Source of the DNA: a virus
Direction: 5' to 3' (one strand)
Length of the DNA: 30,679 bases
Virus record (IMG/VR): IMGVR_UViG_3300002483_000030
Span: 1-30,679 of that record
This document shows positions 14,674 through 24,307 of the stretch, one piece after another (position 1 is the stretch's first letter; every line of letters begins with the position of its first letter). Both the position numbers and the translations under genes were made by a program. The notes beneath the pieces are model-generated. The model saw nothing but the letters and a program-made list of their open reading frames with translations. It had not been told where the DNA came from and searched no databases.

Positions 14674-15050
14674 GCAGTATAAAGAGCATCCCATTCGTAA
14701 GGAATATCCAGAGTTAACAGACTATCAGATTTATAACCATTTTTAACGAGTTCTTGAGCACGTTCGATACCATCGACATGAAAGAGCTTTATTTGATTGT
14801 TTTTCCGAGCGAGTACGAACACCTGACCACCGTGCATTGCACGTTTAGAAAGCCAAGCGACTTGCATTGGACGTAGAGTGAGTGAGTTACCTGAGTGTAT
14901 TTCTTTTAGTTCAATCCAGAACTCTTTGCCTTTAGCACAACCGTTAACGTCAGGTACACCAGAACCTGTCATCCCTGTTTCGATACGTTGCCAATGTACT
15001 TCTTTTATATTGTCTCTAAGTAGAGCCCATAGATTTTTTTCTTTGGACAT
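14661..15050 (-). CDS. VRR-NUC-type nuclease
   Basis: A 129-aa PD-(D/E)XK enzyme: GMTGSGVPDVNGCAKGKEFWIELKE (about residues 26-50) supplies the G-x-PD and E-x-K catalytic pattern, and LRPMQVAWLSKRAMHGG the following Q-x-x-W helix typical of VRR-NUC and phage Holliday-junction-type nucleases. It probably cuts structured DNA during replication or recombination. It overlaps the end of the Zn-finger gene by 35 bases. Confidence 0.84.
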   Translation of the reverse strand: MSKEKNLWALLRDNIKEVHWQRIETGMTGSGVPDVNGCAKGKEFWIELKEIHSGNSLTLRPMQVAWLSKRAMHGGQVFVLARKNNQIKLFHVDGIERAQELVKNGYKSDSLLTLDIPYEWDALYTALLS

Positions 15051-15795
15051 TATCTAATATCTCCGCGATTGATTTACCACTTTTTGTTTTCATGGGGGCT
15101 ATAGTAGCGAATCCTGGATTCTCTATTTCTGCTTCCGTCGGCATTGTTTCTTTAGGTATCTCCCCTCGTCTTACTTGGTGGTGTTGTAGTATTTTTAAAT
15201 CAAAATTGTGATACCTTACGCTACTTAATCTTGTAAGCCCTAATTGTTCTCTGCGGTGATTTTTTAAAATTTTTGCTTCCCAGTAACGTTTACCACTATA
15301 TTTGGCTTTCGCTCTTTTTTCATACCTAGCTTTAGTGAGGGAATATTCACTGCGTAAAATTTGATGTAAGTCATCTACGTCTTCATGGATTGAACAACTA
15401 TATCCATAATTTTCTTCTAAAGCACATTCCGAGTAGAGTTCCGCTTGAGCTAGTATTTCAGGCGGAACATAATATTCTCCATAAGTGCCTGATTGTTCGT
15501 GGTAATTCTTTTCCGTAAGGTCAGTAATAGAAAAAGGATTTTTATTTAAGTCATACTGATATTGTTGTTTACATTCATTGTCACAAAACAGTTGAGCTTT
15601 CTTAATTGCTACGAAAGTTTTATAACAATGTTCGCAAGATCTTTCTTCTGCAAATTTTTCTGTGGTATTGTTTTTATCTTTTCTTTTCTTATATTTACGA
15701 GTATTTACCCAAGGTTCACGAGGTTTGGGAAATGTGATATTCCCTAGAAAAGGTAGCATTTCTAGTAGAGTAAACAAACCTTTTATCTGAGCCAT
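15016..15795 (-). CDS. Unknown protein with four-cysteine zinc finger
   Basis: A 259-aa protein if started at 15795 (MAQIKGLFTLLEMLPFLGNI, TGATG overlap with the gene before); an ATG at 15810 with AGGA upstream is equally possible. After a basic linker (RKYKKRKDKN) there is CEHCYKTF...LFCDNECKQQY (about residues 53-80), a treble-clef/HNH-like zinc knuckle. Residues 120-215 are helical and basic, with RYWEAKILKNHRREQLGL and RYHNFDLKILQHHQVRRGEI. No HNH histidine-asparagine core is obvious. A DNA- or RNA-binding role near the polymerase is inferred. Confidence 0.7.
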   Translation of the reverse strand: MAQIKGLFTLLEMLPFLGNITFPKPREPWVNTRKYKKRKDKNNTTEKFAEERSCEHCYKTFVAIKKAQLFCDNECKQQYQYDLNKNPFSITDLTEKNYHEQSGTYGEYYVPPEILAQAELYSECALEENYGYSCSIHEDVDDLHQILRSEYSLTKARYEKRAKAKYSGKRYWEAKILKNHRREQLGLTRLSSVRYHNFDLKILQHHQVRRGEIPKETMPTEAEIENPGFATIAPMKTKSGKSIAEILDNVQRKKSMGST

Positions 15796-16139
15796 CAGAA
15801 CATATCCCATCCTGTATGCGGCGCTACTTTTTTATTATTACCAATCACTCGTATCTTATTATCTTCTAGCCATTCATTAAAAGCTAATCGAGTTTGTTCT
15901 TTGTCTTTATAAGTAGTGTAGAGTTCAGACCATTTATCTCTAGCGAGCTTTACCCCGTAATAATAATCACCGTTACCGAGTTTGCACCTAGTAATGATCT
16001 GCCACATACGTTGTTTAGTTACGTCATATTCTTCCCCTAGTTGTTCTAAGGTTAGTTCATCTTCCGATAACCACTTATCGTAGATAGACCTATAACGTAC
16101 TGCGTTTTCATCTGCTTTTTGTTTTGAGATTCCTCTCAT
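15795..16139 (-). CDS. Helix-turn-helix protein (sigma region 4-like)
   Basis: A 114-aa protein. Residues about 29-54 (LTLEQLGEEYDVTKQRMWQIIT) match the helix-turn-helix of sigma factor region 4 or small phage transcription regulators: LEQLGEEYDVTKQRMWQI has the positions of 'tleEIGeelgvSrqrVrQI'. The rest is helical and basic/aromatic. It starts within the stop of the polymerase gene (1-base overlap). It could be a regulator acting on the phage's own promoters, but that is inference. Confidence 0.7.
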   Translation of the reverse strand: MRGISKQKADENAVRYRSIYDKWLSEDELTLEQLGEEYDVTKQRMWQIITRCKLGNGDYYYGVKLARDKWSELYTTYKDKEQTRLAFNEWLEDNKIRVIGNNKKVAPHTGWDMF

Positions 16140-17998
16140 TATATTTCCTCCGTTTCACCCCAGTTTGGACCGAGTTCAGTATCTACTACAAGGGGAACAG
16201 CAAGTTCTACACAGTTTTCCATAATTCTTGAAACCTTCGCTGCTTGTTCATCATCTTGTATAGATATGTCCACCTCGTCGTGAACCTGTACGTGAGGAAC
16301 TATTCCTTCCTCCCACAGTCCGAGCATCGCTAACTTTGTCATATCAGCTGCCGAACCTTGAATCAGTCTATTAAGGGCTTTATATGTATAAGACCTCTTT
16401 AGAACGTCTCCGTATTTTTCTCTAGCCTCTTCCAATGGCAACGGTACGCTTTTATCGTACTTATGTTCCCATAGGTCGAAGTGACACCTTCTTCCCGCAA
16501 GTGTTCGTATATATCCCCTATCCATAGCTACTCGAGCACATTGATCCTGCAGTCCTTTTATAAAAGGAACTTTCTCATGGTATTGACCGAGTAAAACCTC
16601 TGCTTCCGCATCATCTAAACCAAGCTCCCGTACGAGCTTAGATTTACCCATTCCATAACTAAGTCCTAGATTAATATTTTTAGCCTGTTTACGCGGTATT
16701 TTAGCCATATCCGCTACTATCTGGTGGAAGTCTGCGTTCTTATCTGTATAGGCGTTTACGGCGTCCCTAGCGCCTATTAAATTCATCAGGTTAGCGTAGT
16801 GTACAGTAAGTCTAGGTTCTTGTTGTGAGTAATCGAACACACCCCACTGACAGCCTTCCTCAGGAACAAAGATAGAGCGAATTAAATTACCTATCTCTGG
16901 ATCACGTGCAGGCACTTGTTGTAGATTAGGATTACTATAACTAAACCGACCACTAACCGTGCCGCCCGCATCGTTACGTAGAGGATGAGCTTCTGCGTGT
17001 ATTCTTCCTTCTACCGCATGTTCTGATATCATCTTTTCAATAAACGTAGTCCTAGCTTTATTTAATTTCCTTGCCTGTACTATCATCTTAGGAAGCTCGT
17101 GTTCGTGGCTTTCTAACCACTGTCTTTGGAAACTAGCCATACCCTTTTCGGTTCTAGGATAGGGTAGATTGTTTTTATCGAATACTTTTTGTAGAGAGGC
17201 ATTAGCCCATAGATTTACATCTTCTCCGTATTTACGTTTTATTTCGACTAATAGTTTTTGTTCTTTTAACGATAGATCCTTACTGATCTGATCTGCTTTT
17301 TCTTCATCCACTCTAACGCCGCGCCACCTCATCTCAATAAGTAAGGGGATTAGACTGCATTCTAGGTCGTAGATTTGTTCTAAATTTTGTTCTTGTATCT
17401 CTAGTTTTAGTTTCTCATATAACTTCAATGTCAAAGCTGCATCTTGTTCACCATATGGTCCAACATACTTAGAATTAAGTTTATACATTTCTGACTTAGG
17501 GTTGATGCCCCAAGCCAAGGCAGCGTCTTGCAATAAAGACTCATCTTTCTTTTCGCCACAATATAGATGCCCTAATGAATCGAGAGAGTAAGAGTATCGG
17601 TTTTCATCTACGATTGGAGCAGCAAACATAGTGTCAAGGATTTTACCCTTTACGTCTACTCCCTCTCTTCTCAACCACCCAACATCATAAAGTGCGTTAT
17701 GAAAGATTACTTCCCTCTTCGTAGAAGATAGAGTATTTTTCACCCACCGCAAAACAACTGCCTCGTCAAGGTTGCCACCGCCTTCATGACGAATCGGAAA
17801 GTAGCCTTTCCAATCTTTAGTGGCAACGCCCACTCCAACTATATGACCTCTGTTCGTAGCCCATCCTGGACCTGACGTTAGGAGATGAGGATCATACGTT
17901 TCTAAGTCTACAGCGATACGCTCGTTATCTGCAAACTTAGGAAAGATCTCTGGTATTGACCAGTCGCTTTCTGGAGCGAACATAGGGGACTGTTGCAT
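16139..17998 (-). CDS. polA: DNA polymerase, family A, with 3'-5' exonuclease
   Basis: The replicative polymerase of the phage, 619 aa. Exonuclease: VDLETYD (D31, E33), HNALYD (N101, D105) and YGEQD (Y182, D186), so the DEDDy set is intact. Polymerase: RFSYSNPNLQQVPAR near 351, motif A FDYSQQEPR (D389, E394), motif B RKQAKNINLGLSYG (R436, K440, Y448), motif C VHDEVD (H573, D574, E575). No 5'-nuclease domain is present. The residue equivalent to Phe762 of E. coli Pol I is Leu444, a variant frequent in virioplankton and affecting nucleotide discrimination. It sits between a basic small protein and the HTH gene with overlapping ends. Confidence 0.96.
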   Translation of the reverse strand: MQQSPMFAPESDWSIPEIFPKFADNERIAVDLETYDPHLLTSGPGWATNRGHIVGVGVATKDWKGYFPIRHEGGGNLDEAVVLRWVKNTLSSTKREVIFHNALYDVGWLRREGVDVKGKILDTMFAAPIVDENRYSYSLDSLGHLYCGEKKDESLLQDAALAWGINPKSEMYKLNSKYVGPYGEQDAALTLKLYEKLKLEIQEQNLEQIYDLECSLIPLLIEMRWRGVRVDEEKADQISKDLSLKEQKLLVEIKRKYGEDVNLWANASLQKVFDKNNLPYPRTEKGMASFQRQWLESHEHELPKMIVQARKLNKARTTFIEKMISEHAVEGRIHAEAHPLRNDAGGTVSGRFSYSNPNLQQVPARDPEIGNLIRSIFVPEEGCQWGVFDYSQQEPRLTVHYANLMNLIGARDAVNAYTDKNADFHQIVADMAKIPRKQAKNINLGLSYGMGKSKLVRELGLDDAEAEVLLGQYHEKVPFIKGLQDQCARVAMDRGYIRTLAGRRCHFDLWEHKYDKSVPLPLEEAREKYGDVLKRSYTYKALNRLIQGSAADMTKLAMLGLWEEGIVPHVQVHDEVDISIQDDEQAAKVSRIMENCVELAVPLVVDTELGPNWGETEEI

Positions 17999-18345
17999 TA
18001 TTTCTTTTTAGTCCTAACTACTTTTACGACTTTTTTCTTAGGTTTTGACTTAGGTGCTTTACCACCAACCCAAGCTTCGTTAACGTCAGGCGTAGACTTA
18101 TCGTCTGCCTTATACGTTCCCTTCTTAGTCCTAGCCCTTTTTGGTTTCGGGGCTTCTTTAACTACTTCGGCTTCCTCAAACTTTTGAAGTTCTACAGTTG
18201 CGTCTTTCATCTTTTCAGAAATAATATCTTCTTTCTTACTTTCTTGTGACAAGATATCTTTAGCTTGCTCGTAAGGGCTTTGACCCTTAGAGTCAGCTAC
18301 TATTGGTCTTGTTCGTTTTCTTCTGAACCAGTCGAACCATCCCAT
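17998..18345 (-). CDS. Unknown Lys-rich basic protein, 115 aa
   Basis: Starts MGWFDWFRRKRTRPIVADSK, then a helical part with acidic patches, and ends in a long lysine/proline-rich tail (GKAPKSKPKKKVVKVVRTKK). The aromatic/basic N-terminus may attach it to membrane or a partner; the tail suggests nucleic-acid binding. It overlaps the DUF1599-like gene by 46 bases and abuts polA. Not recognised. Confidence 0.65.
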   Translation of the reverse strand: MGWFDWFRRKRTRPIVADSKGQSPYEQAKDILSQESKKEDIISEKMKDATVELQKFEEAEVVKEAPKPKRARTKKGTYKADDKSTPDVNEAWVGGKAPKSKPKKKVVKVVRTKKK

Positions 18346-18662
18346 GACTCTTCCTCCATATTATTATTAACATCACCTGAGTTGTTAAGAATATACTCCT
18401 CAACAAGTATCAGATACCTACGTAAGTCACGGATATCGTCGAGTAAGCCAGCCTCACCTTTATAGACTTCTCCAGCTTCAAATACATCCCACCCATGCTT
18501 TTCAGCTTGGTGCTCGATCCTATCGAACTTACGTGCCAACATCATGAAAGCACCCACGCCACCGCGTCGCCTCCACGAATTCCCATATGACTCTTCAGCT
18601 TTTTTAAGAGCTTGCAAGTCTAACTGCGCGATATCGCGCATATTTTCCCACTTATTTTCCAT
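18300..18662 (-). CDS. DUF1599/Nmad1-like protein (nucleotide-modification associated)
   Basis: A 120-aa all-helical protein. Residues about 21-55 (LKKAEESYGNSWRRRGGVGA then FMMLARKFDRIEHQ) show the YGNSW...RGG.GAFMMLARK.DRIE pattern of small phage proteins that I place near DUF1599/Nmad1, a MazG-like all-alpha family proposed to act with nucleotide-modification enzymes. Then LLDDIRDLRRYLILVEEYIL, followed by an acidic Asn/Ser-rich tail. It overlaps the thymidylate synthase-family gene by 11 bases. Probable role: handling a modified nucleotide or its triphosphate; the family assignment is from memory of the motif. Confidence 0.65.
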   Translation of the reverse strand: MENKWENMRDIAQLDLQALKKAEESYGNSWRRRGGVGAFMMLARKFDRIEHQAEKHGWDVFEAGEVYKGEAGLLDDIRDLRRYLILVEEYILNNSGDVNNNMEEESWDGSTGSEENEQDQ

Positions 18663-19701
18663 CGTTTCCTCCTTCTGTTTTAAGTGTCCAAGATAAATCT
18701 CTCTTTTTAATCCAATCGAAACAGGCTGTCATCCAGTCGTTCGGTAGTATTTTCATTACTTCTCTATATGCTTTTATATAGTCTCTTTCCCTATGTGCGT
18801 TAAAAGTCTTAACCATTGGGACTGCTATATTTTTAAAAGCTGGATTCACCCACGTATCATCATCGTATGAAGCCATATCTTCAGGGATAATATGGAAAAA
18901 TCTATCTAGTTCCCAATCGAAAACTTTCGGGTCGGTAATGAAATTTGTATACGCGATACCATCTAACGCATCGTACGGGTTCTTTAAATTAGAATAGTTC
19001 CATGGGTCTATCTCCACGCCTTTTACTCTTTCCCATACTTCGTTATGGTATACGTGGAAACTATCGCTAACTTGCCTATACGTTCCCATATCTACTTTTA
19101 AATGAGCCGCTATATATTCTTGTAACATAGACATATGTACTGCGTTAGCGCCGTACGCTCCCCAAAGCATATCGTTAGAACGGTTACATACGGTCATATG
19201 TAATTGTTTATCTCTTATTTTGAAATAGATACTCGTATTACAAGGCACGTCTTTACTGTTTCTTCCAAGGTCTTTATTCGCATCCCACATCTGTAAAACG
19301 CAACGTCTATCTTCTGGATTAGTTTGTAACATTTCTATAACAGATTTAATCTGGTCTTTATGAAAATAACTGCGCCACCTCCAACCGTACGCCCCCCATA
19401 AAGTCTCTCCGTCATCAGAAAAGTTCTCCATAGACTTAACGTATCGAGTTAAAGGTGCTAAGTCTTTACGACCTGCAAGCATCCATAAGCCTTCTATAAA
19501 ATGGAAAAAAGGATTAGCATCTCGTATCTTAAGAAGTAATACTCTTTCCCATGGTTTTTCATAAACTGTTGTTACAGGTTCAAGTGCCTCGTATGTCGTT
19601 CCGTTTCTGCTTTCTTGCTCGCGGAAGTTACGAGGGTCTTGGAATAAATCCAATCCCAATAATAGAGCATCGTTTACATTTCTTGCTCGAATTACTTTCA
19701 T
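18652..19701 (-). CDS. Thymidylate synthase-family enzyme (TS or dUMP hydroxymethylase)
   Basis: A 349-aa folate-dependent pyrimidine C5-modifying enzyme. Seen: YGWRWRSY (about 105-112), PEDRR (R132, R133 of the phosphate site), catalytic Cys154 in DVPCNTS, NRSND (R174-D177) and FHVYHNE (H216, Y218). The loop carrying the nucleotide-selecting Asn177 of E. coli TS reads WGAYGANAV here, one residue longer, so Asn is shifted or replaced. His147 is Asn and the usual C-terminal APVAI is missing. It could therefore make dTMP or 5-hydroxymethyl-dUMP; its place beside a base-hypermodification gene favours the latter. dUMP comes from the dUTPase. Confidence 0.86.
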   Translation of the reverse strand: MKVIRARNVNDALLLGLDLFQDPRNFREQESRNGTTYEALEPVTTVYEKPWERVLLLKIRDANPFFHFIEGLWMLAGRKDLAPLTRYVKSMENFSDDGETLWGAYGWRWRSYFHKDQIKSVIEMLQTNPEDRRCVLQMWDANKDLGRNSKDVPCNTSIYFKIRDKQLHMTVCNRSNDMLWGAYGANAVHMSMLQEYIAAHLKVDMGTYRQVSDSFHVYHNEVWERVKGVEIDPWNYSNLKNPYDALDGIAYTNFITDPKVFDWELDRFFHIIPEDMASYDDDTWVNPAFKNIAVPMVKTFNAHRERDYIKAYREVMKILPNDWMTACFDWIKKRDLSWTLKTEGGNDGK

Positions 19702-19919
19702 ATCGAATCGTGGTACGCGCCTGTTATTTCATTGATTAAAAAATGTAACTGTTCATCAGTTAGTTGAGGTAGTTTCTTTTTTAAAAACGCTATAGCCATT
19801 TCATAGCTTGCTGGAACTTTCAAAAAGAACGCAACTTCTAAAAACTGTGTGTAGTATATATCTACTATATCGCCGTATTGATCTAATAGATCAATGGCTA
19901 CATCACTCATTCCGCTCAT
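19698..19919 (-). CDS. Unknown 73-aa protein in the modification group
   Basis: Acidic, helical (MSGMSDVAIDLLDQYGDIVD start, then KLPQLTDEQLHFLINEITGA). It ends in a 4-base overlap with the thymidylate synthase-family gene, so it is coupled to it. Ribosome binding site AAAGGAGAAAAC. Not recognised; could be a small partner of either neighbour. Confidence 0.62.
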   Translation of the reverse strand: MSGMSDVAIDLLDQYGDIVDIYYTQFLEVAFFLKVPASYEMAIAFLKKKLPQLTDEQLHFLINEITGAYHDSI

Positions 19920-19931
19920 GTTTTCTCCTTT

Positions 19932-20816
19932 CTATATATCTTCTATTAACGGTAAATTTTCGTCATATTTATAAACACTTCGTGTTCGCCCCTCTTCATT
20001 AAGTATTCGAGAGTATTTATCGAATTCACAAAGCCCCCCTTCTATTTCCCTCATCTCAAACCGACTTAGATCGATTAAGTTAGGGTTAAGTCTTTCGCGA
20101 GATATTTCCCATAGCTCACGCATTTCATCGTTCCACGGATGGCTACGCCTAGAAAAATCTAAATCTCTGCCTGCTAACCTATTGAGTCCTCTCATCGCTC
20201 CTGGACCAGCATTAGCCCATGTCAAAATATCTTTAGCGTCTCGTAATAGATAAGTATGGCGTAGGTCTGTTATAACTTCGTACGCCATGAATGGACCCAT
20301 GTATGGGTAATCACGCAAGATCTCCCAAGATTTCTCTAACGATTTGGTAGCAAGTATTTGGTCTACAAGTTTTTCTCTATCACCCCACATATGGGATATA
20401 CACTCTGCTACACCTGTCACCTTATCCATACGGTTCGGTGTTTTAACGATATACGCACCTGTTACCCATTTATCTTGTTTCGTTATTTCTTCGATAGCTT
20501 TCTTTCTATCCCACTCGATATGTAAGTTATGGCGCACTAAAGTTCTTCCTGTCTCGATAAAATTAAACCAACGGAAAATTACAGTAGCCATTAAAACTTC
20601 AGGATCATCGCGCCACACATTACGTATATGGCGTTTAAACCAACGAGTCGTTCTATCTTCTTCTCGAAACACCTGACAAAACTTAAACTTTTGTAAGATA
20701 GGATCATCTGTCCACGGTGGTTCGTGTCGTAATACTTCTTTATTAATACGAATGGTCTCCCGTTCGTGTATCCAATAGAAGTATAAATCGAGCCTATCTC
20801 GTAGTTCGTGAATCAC
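19932..20816 (-). CDS. DNA base hypermodification protein (HMUDK-helical / aGPT-pyrophosphorylase type)
   Basis: A 294-aa all-helical protein matching the family described as 5-hmdU DNA kinase helical domain or alpha-glutamyl/putrescinyl-thymine pyrophosphorylase, which act on hydroxymethyluracil in phage DNA. Signature segments: KFKFCQVFREEDRTTRW (about 43-59), VIFRWFNFIETGR (79-91), the GPFMAYEVITDLRHTYLL core (174-191), the DNA-glycosylase-like ANAGPGAMRGLNRLAGR hairpin (201-217) and the closing IEGGLCEFDKYSR (258-270) with RTRSVY. No Walker A is present, so it is the stand-alone form without a kinase domain. It overlaps the methyltransferase gene by 4 bases. Confidence 0.85.
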   Translation of the reverse strand: MIHELRDRLDLYFYWIHERETIRINKEVLRHEPPWTDDPILQKFKFCQVFREEDRTTRWFKRHIRNVWRDDPEVLMATVIFRWFNFIETGRTLVRHNLHIEWDRKKAIEEITKQDKWVTGAYIVKTPNRMDKVTGVAECISHMWGDREKLVDQILATKSLEKSWEILRDYPYMGPFMAYEVITDLRHTYLLRDAKDILTWANAGPGAMRGLNRLAGRDLDFSRRSHPWNDEMRELWEISRERLNPNLIDLSRFEMREIEGGLCEFDKYSRILNEEGRTRSVYKYDENLPLIEDI

Positions 20817-21682
20817 TTCTTAACGAGCCTCCATGCACAGTTGTTAGCTATCTCAGGATAGAACACAGCCGCAGCCATTCTTAAAAACTGTTTACCGAAA
20901 CGTTCTTGTAATAATAACATTTGTTCTACGCTCCAGCCATTTTTATTTATTTGGTCATAATCCTTAGTAAAGTTATCCGCATTCATAGCTTTCTTTAATT
21001 TAGGCATCTGTATAAACGTACCTGTTACTGCTTCTATACGGAAGTTCCTTTCTAGTTCTTCTTTTAGTTCTTGAAAGCCCCACTCGTAGACATGATCCTC
21101 GGGCAACTTATCGTTAGAACCGTCATGGTTAGGCGTTGATATATACGCGATGGCATCGGGTCGCATAACCCTTGCCGCCTCATCAAGCCAAGCAGGAACA
21201 AACTCTCTACCCATGTGTTCAATAACTTCTGTCGACCAAAAGAAATCTATACTTTCATCTGGTAGGTCTAGTATCGGATTAGTTGTTAAATCTTGTATAC
21301 GTATCTCGCCGTTGAAGTTCTTAAACCAAGTAGAATCTTTTAGTTCTCCTCCGCCGTTTGACCAAAATGGATTTTCTAGTTCACAAGCTGGATCGATATC
21401 GTAGCCATAATAAGAACGAATAACGTCAGACTTTTTGATAACATAAGCCTTATACAGTACTCTTAATGACCAACACTCACCACAACCTATTTCTAAAGTA
21501 TCTAGTGGTCTACCTAATAATTTAGATTCTTCTATGGCTAGACTAGCTATCTTATCAAATCTACTCATATGAGCTAATTCATCAGGTCGCCAGTTTCCTA
21601 GAACACCCGCAGACGCTAAATCCATACGGGTATTTTTACTATCGTTTTCGTTAACTTTTAATTTTCTTCTTATAGATGACAT
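20813..21682 (-). CDS. Class I SAM-dependent methyltransferase
   Basis: I place the start at the ATG at 21682 (MSSIRRKLKVNENDSKNTRM) because GGAGG stands 5 bases before it. Seen: LDTLEIGCGECWSLRVLY (glycine-rich SAM loop, about 60-77), YYGYDIDPACE (ribose-binding Asp), DLPDESIDFFWSTEVIEHM and EAARVMRPDAIAYISTPNHDG, the full order of a Rossmann methyltransferase of the UbiE/Methyltransf_11 kind. It lacks the DPPY/NPPY loop of DNA amino-methylases, so the target is not ordinary base N-methylation. By context it may decorate a modified base or nucleotide. Confidence 0.85.
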   Translation of the reverse strand: MSSIRRKLKVNENDSKNTRMDLASAGVLGNWRPDELAHMSRFDKIASLAIEESKLLGRPLDTLEIGCGECWSLRVLYKAYVIKKSDVIRSYYGYDIDPACELENPFWSNGGGELKDSTWFKNFNGEIRIQDLTTNPILDLPDESIDFFWSTEVIEHMGREFVPAWLDEAARVMRPDAIAYISTPNHDGSNDKLPEDHVYEWGFQELKEELERNFRIEAVTGTFIQMPKLKKAMNADNFTKDYDQINKNGWSVEQMLLLQERFGKQFLRMAAAVFYPEIANNCAWRLVKK

Positions 21683-22167
21683 GGTTCCTCCCACCAAGTT
21701 GGTTTATTTCTACCCTTTTCCCACTTAGCGTAGTGCTTTTCGTGGATACAGTAATCTCTGTATGCTTTAACAGGGTCTTCGTTTTTATATTGATCAGGCA
21801 TTGCCTGTGCTACTGGTGTTATATCACCTACTTTTATATTTCTAGGTCTTCTACATAAAGGTCTTTCAAGTTTTACAAAACTAGCGTGTTCTTTACCATA
21901 CCTATATTTATATTCCTCACTCAATGCTAAGAAATGGTTCAACAACCACCAGTAATTACCACTAGATTCTCTAGCCCATATTGTGCACGGATGATTCCAG
22001 TATGCTCGTTTGTAAAGTCCATTAGCATCTGCATAACCATCACCGTCAAGCTCTCTATGAGCGGTACATAACATCTGTGCTGTTTCCAATGGCATCTTCA
22101 CTAGCATCTTGTCAGGTTGTGCTCGTGCAGCAACTTCTGGATCTTCGTCAAAATAAAATATATTCAT
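21670..22167 (-). CDS. Conserved phage protein of the MNIFxxDxDP family
   Basis: A 165-aa protein. Opening MNIFYFDEDPEVAARAQPDK then MLVKMPLETAQMLCTAHREL, middle NHPCTIWARESSGNYWWLLNHFLAL, then TPVAQAMPDQYK and YRDYCIHEKHYAKWEKGRNK with a PTWWEEP end. I know this as a widespread phage/virus family of unknown activity; usual members have HCDKH where this one has AQPDK. It is the first gene after the promoter at 22196-22225 and precedes the methyltransferase and hypermodification genes, so a role in DNA modification is plausible but unproven. Confidence 0.75.
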   Translation of the reverse strand: MNIFYFDEDPEVAARAQPDKMLVKMPLETAQMLCTAHRELDGDGYADANGLYKRAYWNHPCTIWARESSGNYWWLLNHFLALSEEYKYRYGKEHASFVKLERPLCRRPRNIKVGDITPVAQAMPDQYKNEDPVKAYRDYCIHEKHYAKWEKGRNKPTWWEEPCHL

Positions 22168-22232: not shown

Positions 22233-23729
22233 TTATATCTGAAAGCAGCGCGTTGTTGCGGGCTCAATAAGGTACAAATTTTCTTTTGCCCTTGTAAGCC
22301 CAACATAAAAAACTCTATTCTCATCATCTGGGTTTTGTTGGTACGTTTTATAAACTCTGGTCGTTATATCCGTAAGTAAAACTACATTAGTTGCCTCACC
22401 ACCTTTAGCGGCATGTATGGTCGATAACCTAATTCTAGGTTCTTTAGTAATTTTTTCCCCCCTACGGAGCATGGCTCGGATATAACTAATGTCTTTTGGA
22501 CTTAAACCTGTAAGTGCATCGTACCAATCTCCGTCAGGTAACTCAGGAAAGCGTTCTCTGAGATCAGCTACGGTCATCGTTACGTCAATCTCTAAAACAT
22601 CTAGGGAGTTAGCCTTACGAACTTTTACAAATTTTAACAGATTGACGCATTCTGATAGGGGTAAACTCTCTCCTTTTTGTAATCTTTGCCAATTTAGTAC
22701 CGCTCTGACTTTTGATTCAGAAATACTAGGTCTGCCCTTCACTTCAAAAAACCAACCTTCGTTTCTACAGTGGTCGTCTATTTGTTCAAGTAAATAATTA
22801 GTACGAGCAAGTACCAACCAGTCACCTTTTTCCATGTCAATTAATTCGATGGACGGTTCCCACCTAACTAAACCTGTTTCTTTTCTCGGTAGCCATGATT
22901 TATGTATCCTGGATCTAACTTGATTTATACATCGACTCGCTAGTTCGTGAACAGCTGACGGTATGCGATACGACTGTTCTAATATCGTAGCGTGTGTTGC
23001 GTTCTTAATTAAATAATCTACGTCAGCTCCCGCCCATTTATAAATTGCTTGATCATCGTCACCAGCAACATAAACACGGTCAGCGTTTTCAATTATCTTA
23101 CGAACCACTGCCCACTGTAAGGGAGATAAGTCTTGAGCTTCATCTACAAAAACTGCTTCTAATTTAGGCACGTCGCCTTTTTCTAAAAACAGTTTTAACA
23201 TATCTGTGTAATCTACTAACAACCTATCTTCTTTAAATAACTGTAATCCCCTAGCATAACGTTCTAACTCGAACCAACCCACTGCATCGTCAACATCATG
23301 CCATTGATCTTCTAACGCCACCTGTCGCATACGGGCAAGGTTTTCTATAAACGCTAATCGATCATCGTGGCTCATACCGAACAGATGTCCTGAGTCTGTA
23401 TTCGCCCCACCCGTTAGACGTAGATTTAAAATCTCATTTAGTTCTTTTATATCTTTTAGATCCATAACGCTTTCTTTAGAAAGCCCTAGTTGCCTAAACG
23501 CTAACGAATGGAGTGTGCGAAAGAAAGGTAAATCTTTTTGTGATAAATCAAACTTCTCCATAGCACGTTGCTTCCCTTCGTTTACAGCTTTTTTAGTAAA
23601 CGTAAAGAAACCTATCCGTGTAGGATCTGTTCCTCTTTCTAGTTCATCCTCTATCAACCCTAGTAATGTGCTTGTCTTTCCTGTCCCTGGTGGTCCAAGA
23701 ATCACTTGCGTATGGGCTGGAAGTGTCAT
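22233..23729 (-). CDS. Superfamily 1 DNA helicase (UvrD/Rep-like)
   Basis: A 498-aa helicase. Walker A GPPGTGKT (about 12-19), motif Ia FFTFTKKAVNE, Walker B VFVDEAQD (about 193-200), motif III VAGDDDQAIYKWAGA (222-236), motif IV-like LEQSYRIP, motif V STIHAAKGGEATNVVLL and motif VI VFYVGLTRAKENLYLI. All are intact, so it should be active in fork or recombination work. It is somewhat shorter than UvrD and lacks an obvious extra domain. It overlaps the dioxygenase gene by 4 bases. Confidence 0.93.
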   Translation of the reverse strand: MTLPAHTQVILGPPGTGKTSTLLGLIEDELERGTDPTRIGFFTFTKKAVNEGKQRAMEKFDLSQKDLPFFRTLHSLAFRQLGLSKESVMDLKDIKELNEILNLRLTGGANTDSGHLFGMSHDDRLAFIENLARMRQVALEDQWHDVDDAVGWFELERYARGLQLFKEDRLLVDYTDMLKLFLEKGDVPKLEAVFVDEAQDLSPLQWAVVRKIIENADRVYVAGDDDQAIYKWAGADVDYLIKNATHATILEQSYRIPSAVHELASRCINQVRSRIHKSWLPRKETGLVRWEPSIELIDMEKGDWLVLARTNYLLEQIDDHCRNEGWFFEVKGRPSISESKVRAVLNWQRLQKGESLPLSECVNLLKFVKVRKANSLDVLEIDVTMTVADLRERFPELPDGDWYDALTGLSPKDISYIRAMLRRGEKITKEPRIRLSTIHAAKGGEATNVVLLTDITTRVYKTYQQNPDDENRVFYVGLTRAKENLYLIEPATTRCFQI

Positions 23730-24307
23730 AAACCTGTCCTGAACGTTAAGTTAATACGTTCGCCTACACCACGTAATGTAGGAACAGAATGAGTAGCAGA
23801 CATCTGAGATGCTCCGTCAAAAATAATAACATCACCGTGACTTAACAAATAATTATTTAGTTTAATAACTTTAGCGTCTTCAGTATTTATCTCACTGGTA
23901 TTGCTTTTAGTTTTTATGCGGCGATCGAATTGCTTCCATTGAAAGATCCTAGGTTCACCAAACGAGATAGAAACTACAAGATCTTTTTGAGTAGGTACAG
24001 TATCAGAGTGATGTGGAATACCTATACGACCATTTTTATACATACCACATAAACAAAAAGTAAACTCTACATCTTGTCCTGTAATATTTTTAGTGTATTC
24101 CTCCGCCCCTTGTTTTATCCATTCCATGTTTTTTGTCCACGGATCAGGTTCATATAACTTGCCTGCATATTCGAAAGACTTCGTTCCGAACGCTCTAGTT
24201 GGTCTACCCTCTACAACCTTACCGTTAAAAACTCTTTGAGAAGGTGCGTCCCATTTTTCTATATACGGAACGTATTCCTTCATAGCGTCTTTGTTATAGT
24301 GGATCAT
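23726..24307 (-). CDS. AlkB-like 2-oxoglutarate/Fe(II) dioxygenase
   Basis: A 193-aa oxygenase. Iron ligands H100 and D102 (PHHSD) and H173 (ATHSVP), and the 2-oxoglutarate-binding RINLTFR (R184, R190), the RxNxTxR signature of the AlkB family, are all present. FCLCGMYKNGRIGIPHHSD is the usual strand before the active site. AlkB enzymes remove alkyl groups from bases by oxidation. In this phage it may repair DNA, or oxidise a base or modified thymine. It is coupled by ATGA overlaps to the primase and the SF1 helicase, so it is made with the replisome. Confidence 0.9.
   Translation of the reverse strand: MIHYNKDAMKEYVPYIEKWDAPSQRVFNGKVVEGRPTRAFGTKSFEYAGKLYEPDPWTKNMEWIKQGAEEYTKNITGQDVEFTFCLCGMYKNGRIGIPHHSDTVPTQKDLVVSISFGEPRIFQWKQFDRRIKTKSNTSEINTEDAKVIKLNNYLLSHGDVIIFDGASQMSATHSVPTLRGVGERINLTFRTGL

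Follow-up and report, generated by a model that had tools for sequence, protein, structure and literature searches.

A putative thymidine-modification locus of ocean phages with a methyltransferase at the position of the 5-hydroxymethyluracil kinase

The known route from 5-hydroxymethyluracil to hypermodified thymidine includes a step in which the base is phosphorylated within DNA. We describe a phage locus of six open reading frames (ORFs), which encodes a thymidylate synthase (TS) homologue, the protein HMUDK_hel (aG/PT-PPlase1) and an S-adenosylmethionine (SAM)-dependent methyltransferase (MT). It was analysed in a stretch of 30,679 nucleotides (the window) of IMG/VR record IMGVR_UViG_3300002483_000030, a 38.5-kb virus record that is itself a fragment. 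In the Pseudomonas phages M6 and PaMx11 a TS-type hydroxymethylase and HMUDK_hel (~36-43% identical) are encoded next to the family A DNA polymerase (PolA), in the same gene order as here. According to Pfam, M6 codes for the amino acid:DNA transferase (ADDT; PF18724, gp51), enzymes of the pyridoxal phosphate (PLP) type (gp52) and the radical SAM type (gp53), and the kinase acting on 5-hydroxymethyl-2'-deoxyuridine (5-hmdU) in DNA (PF18748, gp54), which carries the annotation 'terminase small subunit'; next come HMUDK_hel (gp55) and Nmad5 (gp56), and after these TS (gp58), an HD nucleotidase and PolA. The PaMx11 locus contains ADDT, a flavin adenine dinucleotide (FAD) enzyme, an acetyltransferase, HMUDK_hel and TS, and a P-loop protein resembling the kinase (PF18748 E 0.002, phrog_800 E 5e-30). 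In contrast, the MT-type loci described here lack the kinase, ADDT, PLP, radical SAM, FAD and acetyltransferase genes, and MT occupies the kinase position, directly upstream of HMUDK_hel. Thus, of the proteins of an M6/ViI-type pathway, the TS hydroxymethylase (by signature) and HMUDK_hel were found, whereas the 5-hmdU kinase and ADDT were not.

The TS and aG/PT-PPlase1 genes have been reported near PolA in HTVC023P-type pelagiphages, compared with phage M6 and read as M6-like (PMC9599517). This gene pair is common to these phages and the window. In the main text of that paper no methyltransferase and no 5-hmdU kinase were found, nor does this text deal with the absence of kinase and ADDT or the exchange with other tailoring enzymes; these points are new here. 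The primase of the window matched that of phage 023Pt_psg01 at 39% and those of HTVC023P/027P at ~29% (the HTVC023P type comprises clades V, VIII and IX). By the gene pair and its context, the window phage may belong to this group. An earlier reading made from the letters of the DNA (the sequence-only reading) could not match the gene combination to a described pathway. This did not hold for the TS/HMUDK_hel pair, which is published, but did for MT and the rest. Neither the combination with MT nor the missing kinase or the pattern of exchangeable tailoring was found described in the literature searched. Methoxymethyl bases in phage DNA were not found described there either, which is weak negative evidence.

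The six ORFs were verified at the coordinates of the sequence-only reading; all are on the minus strand and tightly joined. MT (20813..21697, PF13489 E 3.5e-10) overlaps the HMUDK_hel gene (19932..20816) by 4 nt; in relatives MT starts at an internal ATG (MSSIRKK, about 21682). A 12-nt gap separates HMUDK_hel from a 73-aa ORF, which overlaps the TS gene (18652..19701, PF00303 E 6e-24, phrog_5131 E 3e-110) by 4 nt, and TS overlaps the ORF starting at 18300 by 11 nt. A practically identical locus is present on a 46.5-kb IMG/VR contig.

The TS homologue retains the family residues C146, N177, H207 and Y209. Its active-site signature (PCN, D143, no W80, and F in place of W83) is that of the dUMP hydroxymethylase SPO1 gp29, with which the protein shares ~37% identity in the core, and differs from that of E. 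coli ThyA; N147 and N177 are also as in gp29. The best match in the PDB was the CMP 5-hydroxymethylase 5b6d (E 3.6e-20). From this signature we infer that the protein is a dUMP 5-hydroxymethylase, the type that had been proposed for it.

The sequence-only reading had made its proposal depend on a profile match of the 19932-20816 protein to the HMUDK-helical/aGPT family, and the search gave PF18723 with an E value of 1.2e-46. Together with the hydroxymethylase-type TS, this match supports the view that these genes of the replication transcript serve to modify thymine (5-hmdU). The description of the protein as a helical 'hypermodification' protein was right as to family, but it hides the missing kinase and amino-acid transferase and the methyltransferase at the kinase position. 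The AlphaFold2 model of HMUDK_hel (pLDDT 94.5, pTM 0.91) had as Foldseek neighbours in the PDB an archaeal 8-oxoguanine DNA glycosylase (probability 0.98), PaMx11 gp46/PUGT glycinyltransferase (0.85) and endonuclease III (0.54); no solved structure matched HMUDK_hel by sequence. Of the residues conserved in HMUDK_hel of the kinase class, 32/33 are kept in the MT class, and the polar residues R19, D38, R51, D54, D184, D196 and K267 are invariant in all classes. Because of the kept residues and the DNA-glycosylase-like fold, HMUDK_hel looks like a general partner for hydroxymethyluracil-containing DNA that works with swappable tailoring enzymes.

Neither the 5-hmdU DNA kinase (PF18748) nor ADDT (PF18724) gave a profile match in 28 marine records, whereas the controls, phages M6 and PaMx11, were positive. 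Five near-complete genomes of relatives, of 61-66 kb, were examined over their whole length; the one of 61,952 bp carries a direct terminal repeat of 127 bp, and each of the five encodes exactly one MT, HMUDK_hel, TS and 'Nmad1' protein. With custom profiles no kinase, ADDT, TET-associated glycosyltransferase (TAGT), FkbM, GT4, FAD, PLP, radical SAM, acetyltransferase, HD, Nmad5 or dCMP deaminase match was obtained in these five. A scan for P-loop motifs detected no small-kinase-like ORF in them; the motifs belonged to a UvrD-type helicase, to an ORF of ~508 aa in two genomes, which may be the terminase, and to chance occurrences in short ORFs or at a C-terminus. Amino-acid chemistry of the M6 kind was therefore rejected, the kinase and ADDT being absent by Pfam profile, P-loop motif and custom profiles. 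The same applies to a concealed glycosyltransferase: profile searches found none in the five genomes or in 12 MT-type records, where TAGT (PF20691) had no match above the cut-off.

To obtain sampling not biased by the METHYLTRANSFERASE, loci were selected on HMUDK_hel alone. Four scans with HMUDK_hel queries yielded 168 non-identical viral loci, all flanked by 4.5 kb or more on both sides. As each scan comprised only the best 80 matches, the counts should not be read as natural frequencies. TS was present in 164 of the 168 loci and MT in 75, none of which contained kinase/ADDT, TAGT or FkbM/GT4. TAGT was encoded in 44 loci, kinase/ADDT in 35 (three of them also with TAGT) and FkbM/GT4 in nine (two also with TAGT), the TAGT and FkbM classes being identified by Pfam; ten loci were without any of the tailoring enzymes sought. 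Placed on the HMUDK_hel tree, the labelled rows required 13 changes of tailoring class; the MT class requires two.

The TAGT and FkbM/GT4 loci have the HMUDK_hel and TS core in common with the MT-type loci, but encode glycosyltransferases as the putative tailoring enzymes, whereas the MT-type loci encode a lone methyltransferase. TAGT stands beside TS and HMUDK_hel in L231:9480-10268, L293:8861-9673 and ~47 further HMUDK_hel loci, most of them lacking a kinase; this arrangement suggests glycosylated 5-hmdU. In a marine sister class (L232, L233, L236, L238-L240) an FkbM-type methyltransferase and a GT4-type glycosyltransferase lie between HMUDK_hel and TS. In L352:6428-9472 and L358:8664-11543 this place is taken by nucleotidyltransferase-like, glycosyltransferase-like (both recognised by eye) and radical SAM/SPASM proteins, possibly another tailoring route.

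A set of 80 loci found through MT has the gene order helicase-[MNIF]-MT-HMUDK_hel-[73 aa]-TS-'Nmad1'-PolA. The core order MT-HMUDK_hel-TS-'Nmad1'-PolA is retained down to about 50% identity, and is more than chance. TS, the 'Nmad1'-like gene and PolA were all present in 93/93 full MT-type loci.

The SAM methyltransferase family of MT, named in the sequence-only reading, was borne out by the PF13489 match; the enzyme is of class I, its motif I and acidic loop are intact, and motif I and TEVIEHM are conserved from the window to phage AXL3. When the MT of the window was compared with 50,697 phage records, only ct3Et533 and Stenotrophomonas phage AXL3 matched. With these two MTs as queries Pseudoxanthomonas phage PW916 and one further phage record were added; the ct3Et533 enzyme found nothing in viral contigs. 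In ct3Et533 and AXL3 the MT gene is three genes away from a TS-type hydroxymethylase of the dCMP type (T147, D177), and a 'deoxyuridylate hydroxymethyltransferase' near the MT is given in the PW916 paper. In 22 IMG/VR loci (L117-L138) MT is accompanied, mostly, by a PRA-PH protein, a dNMP-kinase-like protein, a hydroxymethylase and a dCMP deaminase. The AXL3/PW916 block thus resembles the window in having a distantly related MT beside a TS-family hydroxymethylase, but differs in the dCMP type of the latter and in the extra PRA-PH and dNMP-kinase-like genes; HMUDK_hel was not seen in it. The two MT branches are only about 26% identical, and may therefore differ in substrate. AXL3 DNA resisted 35/37 restriction enzymes and was cut only by those recognising AATT and TTAA (PMC7504290), a pattern that fits modified C or G. 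The same conserved block of MT, PRA-PH NTPase, dNMP-kinase-like protein, dCMP-type hydroxymethylase and dCMP deaminase was observed in AXL_3 (L111:6174-10885) and L110:7372-10614, and two genes, AXL3 gp32 and gp34, often accompany it.

These observations suggest that phage thymidine modification has a variant in which a methyltransferase is used and no kinase, and which would give O-methylated 5-hmdU, a reading to which we assign a little less than an even chance. In the proposed pathway the TS homologue, judged by its residues and relatives, would convert dUMP to 5-hydroxymethyl-dUMP, which host or other kinases would pass on for incorporation into DNA, replacing part of the thymidine. HMUDK_hel, with its helical, DNA-glycosylase-like fold, would bind newly made DNA, recognise or flip 5-hmdU bases and present them. 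MT would methylate the exposed hydroxymethyl group, the simplest product being 5-(methoxymethyl)-2'-deoxyuridine, a small new base predicted to have the mass of 5-hmdU plus 14 Da, and the methylated base would protect the DNA against nucleases of the host. The hydroxymethyl group is the likely shared acceptor, because no tailoring enzyme other than the lone MT is visible and because the MT family occurs beside a cytosine-type hydroxymethylase as well. The added methyl group guessed at in the sequence-only reading is thus supported, as a prediction, and a widespread group of ocean phages probably replaces part of its thymine with a methyl-capped form. Retention of HMUDK_hel and the hydroxymethylase without a detected kinase, in a large and mostly marine group of phages, would mean that the role of the helical protein is separable from phosphorylation. 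It is a more doubtful proposal that HMUDK_hel is a glycosylase-derived handler of 5-hmdU-containing DNA rather than part of a kinase, that together with MT it makes the undescribed 5-(methoxymethyl)uracil, and that the AXL3-type relatives make the cytosine counterpart. The general picture would be a conserved TS and HMUDK_hel core with swappable kinase/ADDT, TAGT, FkbM/GT4 or methyltransferase; it would correct the M6-like reading of the pelagiphages and offers candidate new DNA-modifying enzymes.

Several points weigh against methylation of 5-hmdU in DNA. Class I methyltransferase folds take many substrates, and the structure search with MT matched the generic Rossmann core only, so that the substrate cannot be read from it. 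The structural matches of HMUDK_hel are weak (E above 0.1). MT loci fall mostly into one or two adjacent clades on the HMUDK_hel tree; their co-occurrence is therefore partly shared descent, and they are not independent draws. A phage dNMP kinase for hmdUMP was not found in the searches, and the AXL3 pattern concerns C or G and could be explained by further AXL3 genes. The weak fold matches also tell against the idea that HMUDK_hel is itself a transferase, linking a small metabolite of the host to 5-hmdU with no need of a separate kinase, after which MT methylates the adduct. The Foldseek match to PUGT/gp46 of PaMx11 and the invariant polar residues kept in all classes are in favour of such a role, but M6 and PaMx11 hold HMUDK_hel alongside a separate ADDT, so there it is not needed as a transferase, and we consider this explanation unlikely.

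MT could also act before incorporation, on 5-hydroxymethyl-dUMP or dUTP, with HMUDK_hel binding or protecting DNA. It belongs to a small-molecule-like class I family and adjoins nucleotide enzymes in AXL3-type loci; however, its gene overlaps that of HMUDK_hel and occupies the slot of a DNA kinase, which makes this quite improbable. Only marginally less plausible is plain 5-hmdU bound by HMUDK_hel, MT acting on an unrelated protein, RNA or small molecule. SPO1 is viable with 5-hmdU alone. Such a reading would leave unexplained, however, why MT strictly accompanies HMUDK_hel and is absent from loci that carry other tailoring enzymes, and why its distant relatives also adjoin hydroxymethylases. 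Amino-acid hypermodification as in M6, for which the host would supply kinase and transferase or these would have diverged beyond detection, would agree with the presence of the same TS/HMUDK_hel pair and is how PMC9599517 reads it, but is made very unlikely by the absence of PF18748, PF18724, custom-profile and kinase-like P-loop matches from near-complete genomes. Finally, an ordinary thymidylate synthase supplying dTMP among unrelated neighbours would account for the TS family membership, and is hardly credible in view of the SPO1-type rather than ThyA-type residues and the tie of TS to HMUDK_hel in all but four of the surveyed loci.

The remaining genes were assigned as follows. The 18300..18662 protein had been labelled Nmad1/DUF1599, and this label failed: in none of the searches made was PF07659 matched, neither by the protein nor by 17 homologues, nor when it was sought directly at E<=10. 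It is a small conserved protein of a genuine phage family with the motif GGVGAFMMLARK..DRIE. The 73-aa protein (19698..19919), with a sub-threshold CRAL_TRIO match, is accessory and retained in only a part of the clade. MNIF (21670..22167), of the pyrimidine-dimer-glycosylase family, was recognised correctly (PF03013 Pyr_excise E 1e-6, phrog_624 E 2e-59). An AlkB-like 2-oxoglutarate-Fe(II) oxygenase (23726..24307, minus strand, PF13532 E 1e-18) lies between primase and helicase, and elsewhere in the genome in the relatives L020 and L022. As MNIF and the AlkB-like gene were found in only 45/93 and 51/93 MT-type loci, respectively, they are facultative neighbours and were rejected as pathway members, the latter being probably outside the core. 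PolA (16139..17998, minus strand, PF00476 E 9e-63) is downstream in the same transcript.

Apparent curli/secretion-like genes, recognised by eye, seem to be present in a relative with terminal repeats (L096, G009:48603-52938), as described for clade VIII/IX pelagiphages. Near PolA, the window contains a cysteine-rich HNH-like gene (15016-15810), which is located directly upstream of HMUDK_hel in L236:7172-7981, L239 and L240 and is perhaps a mobile (homing) gene.

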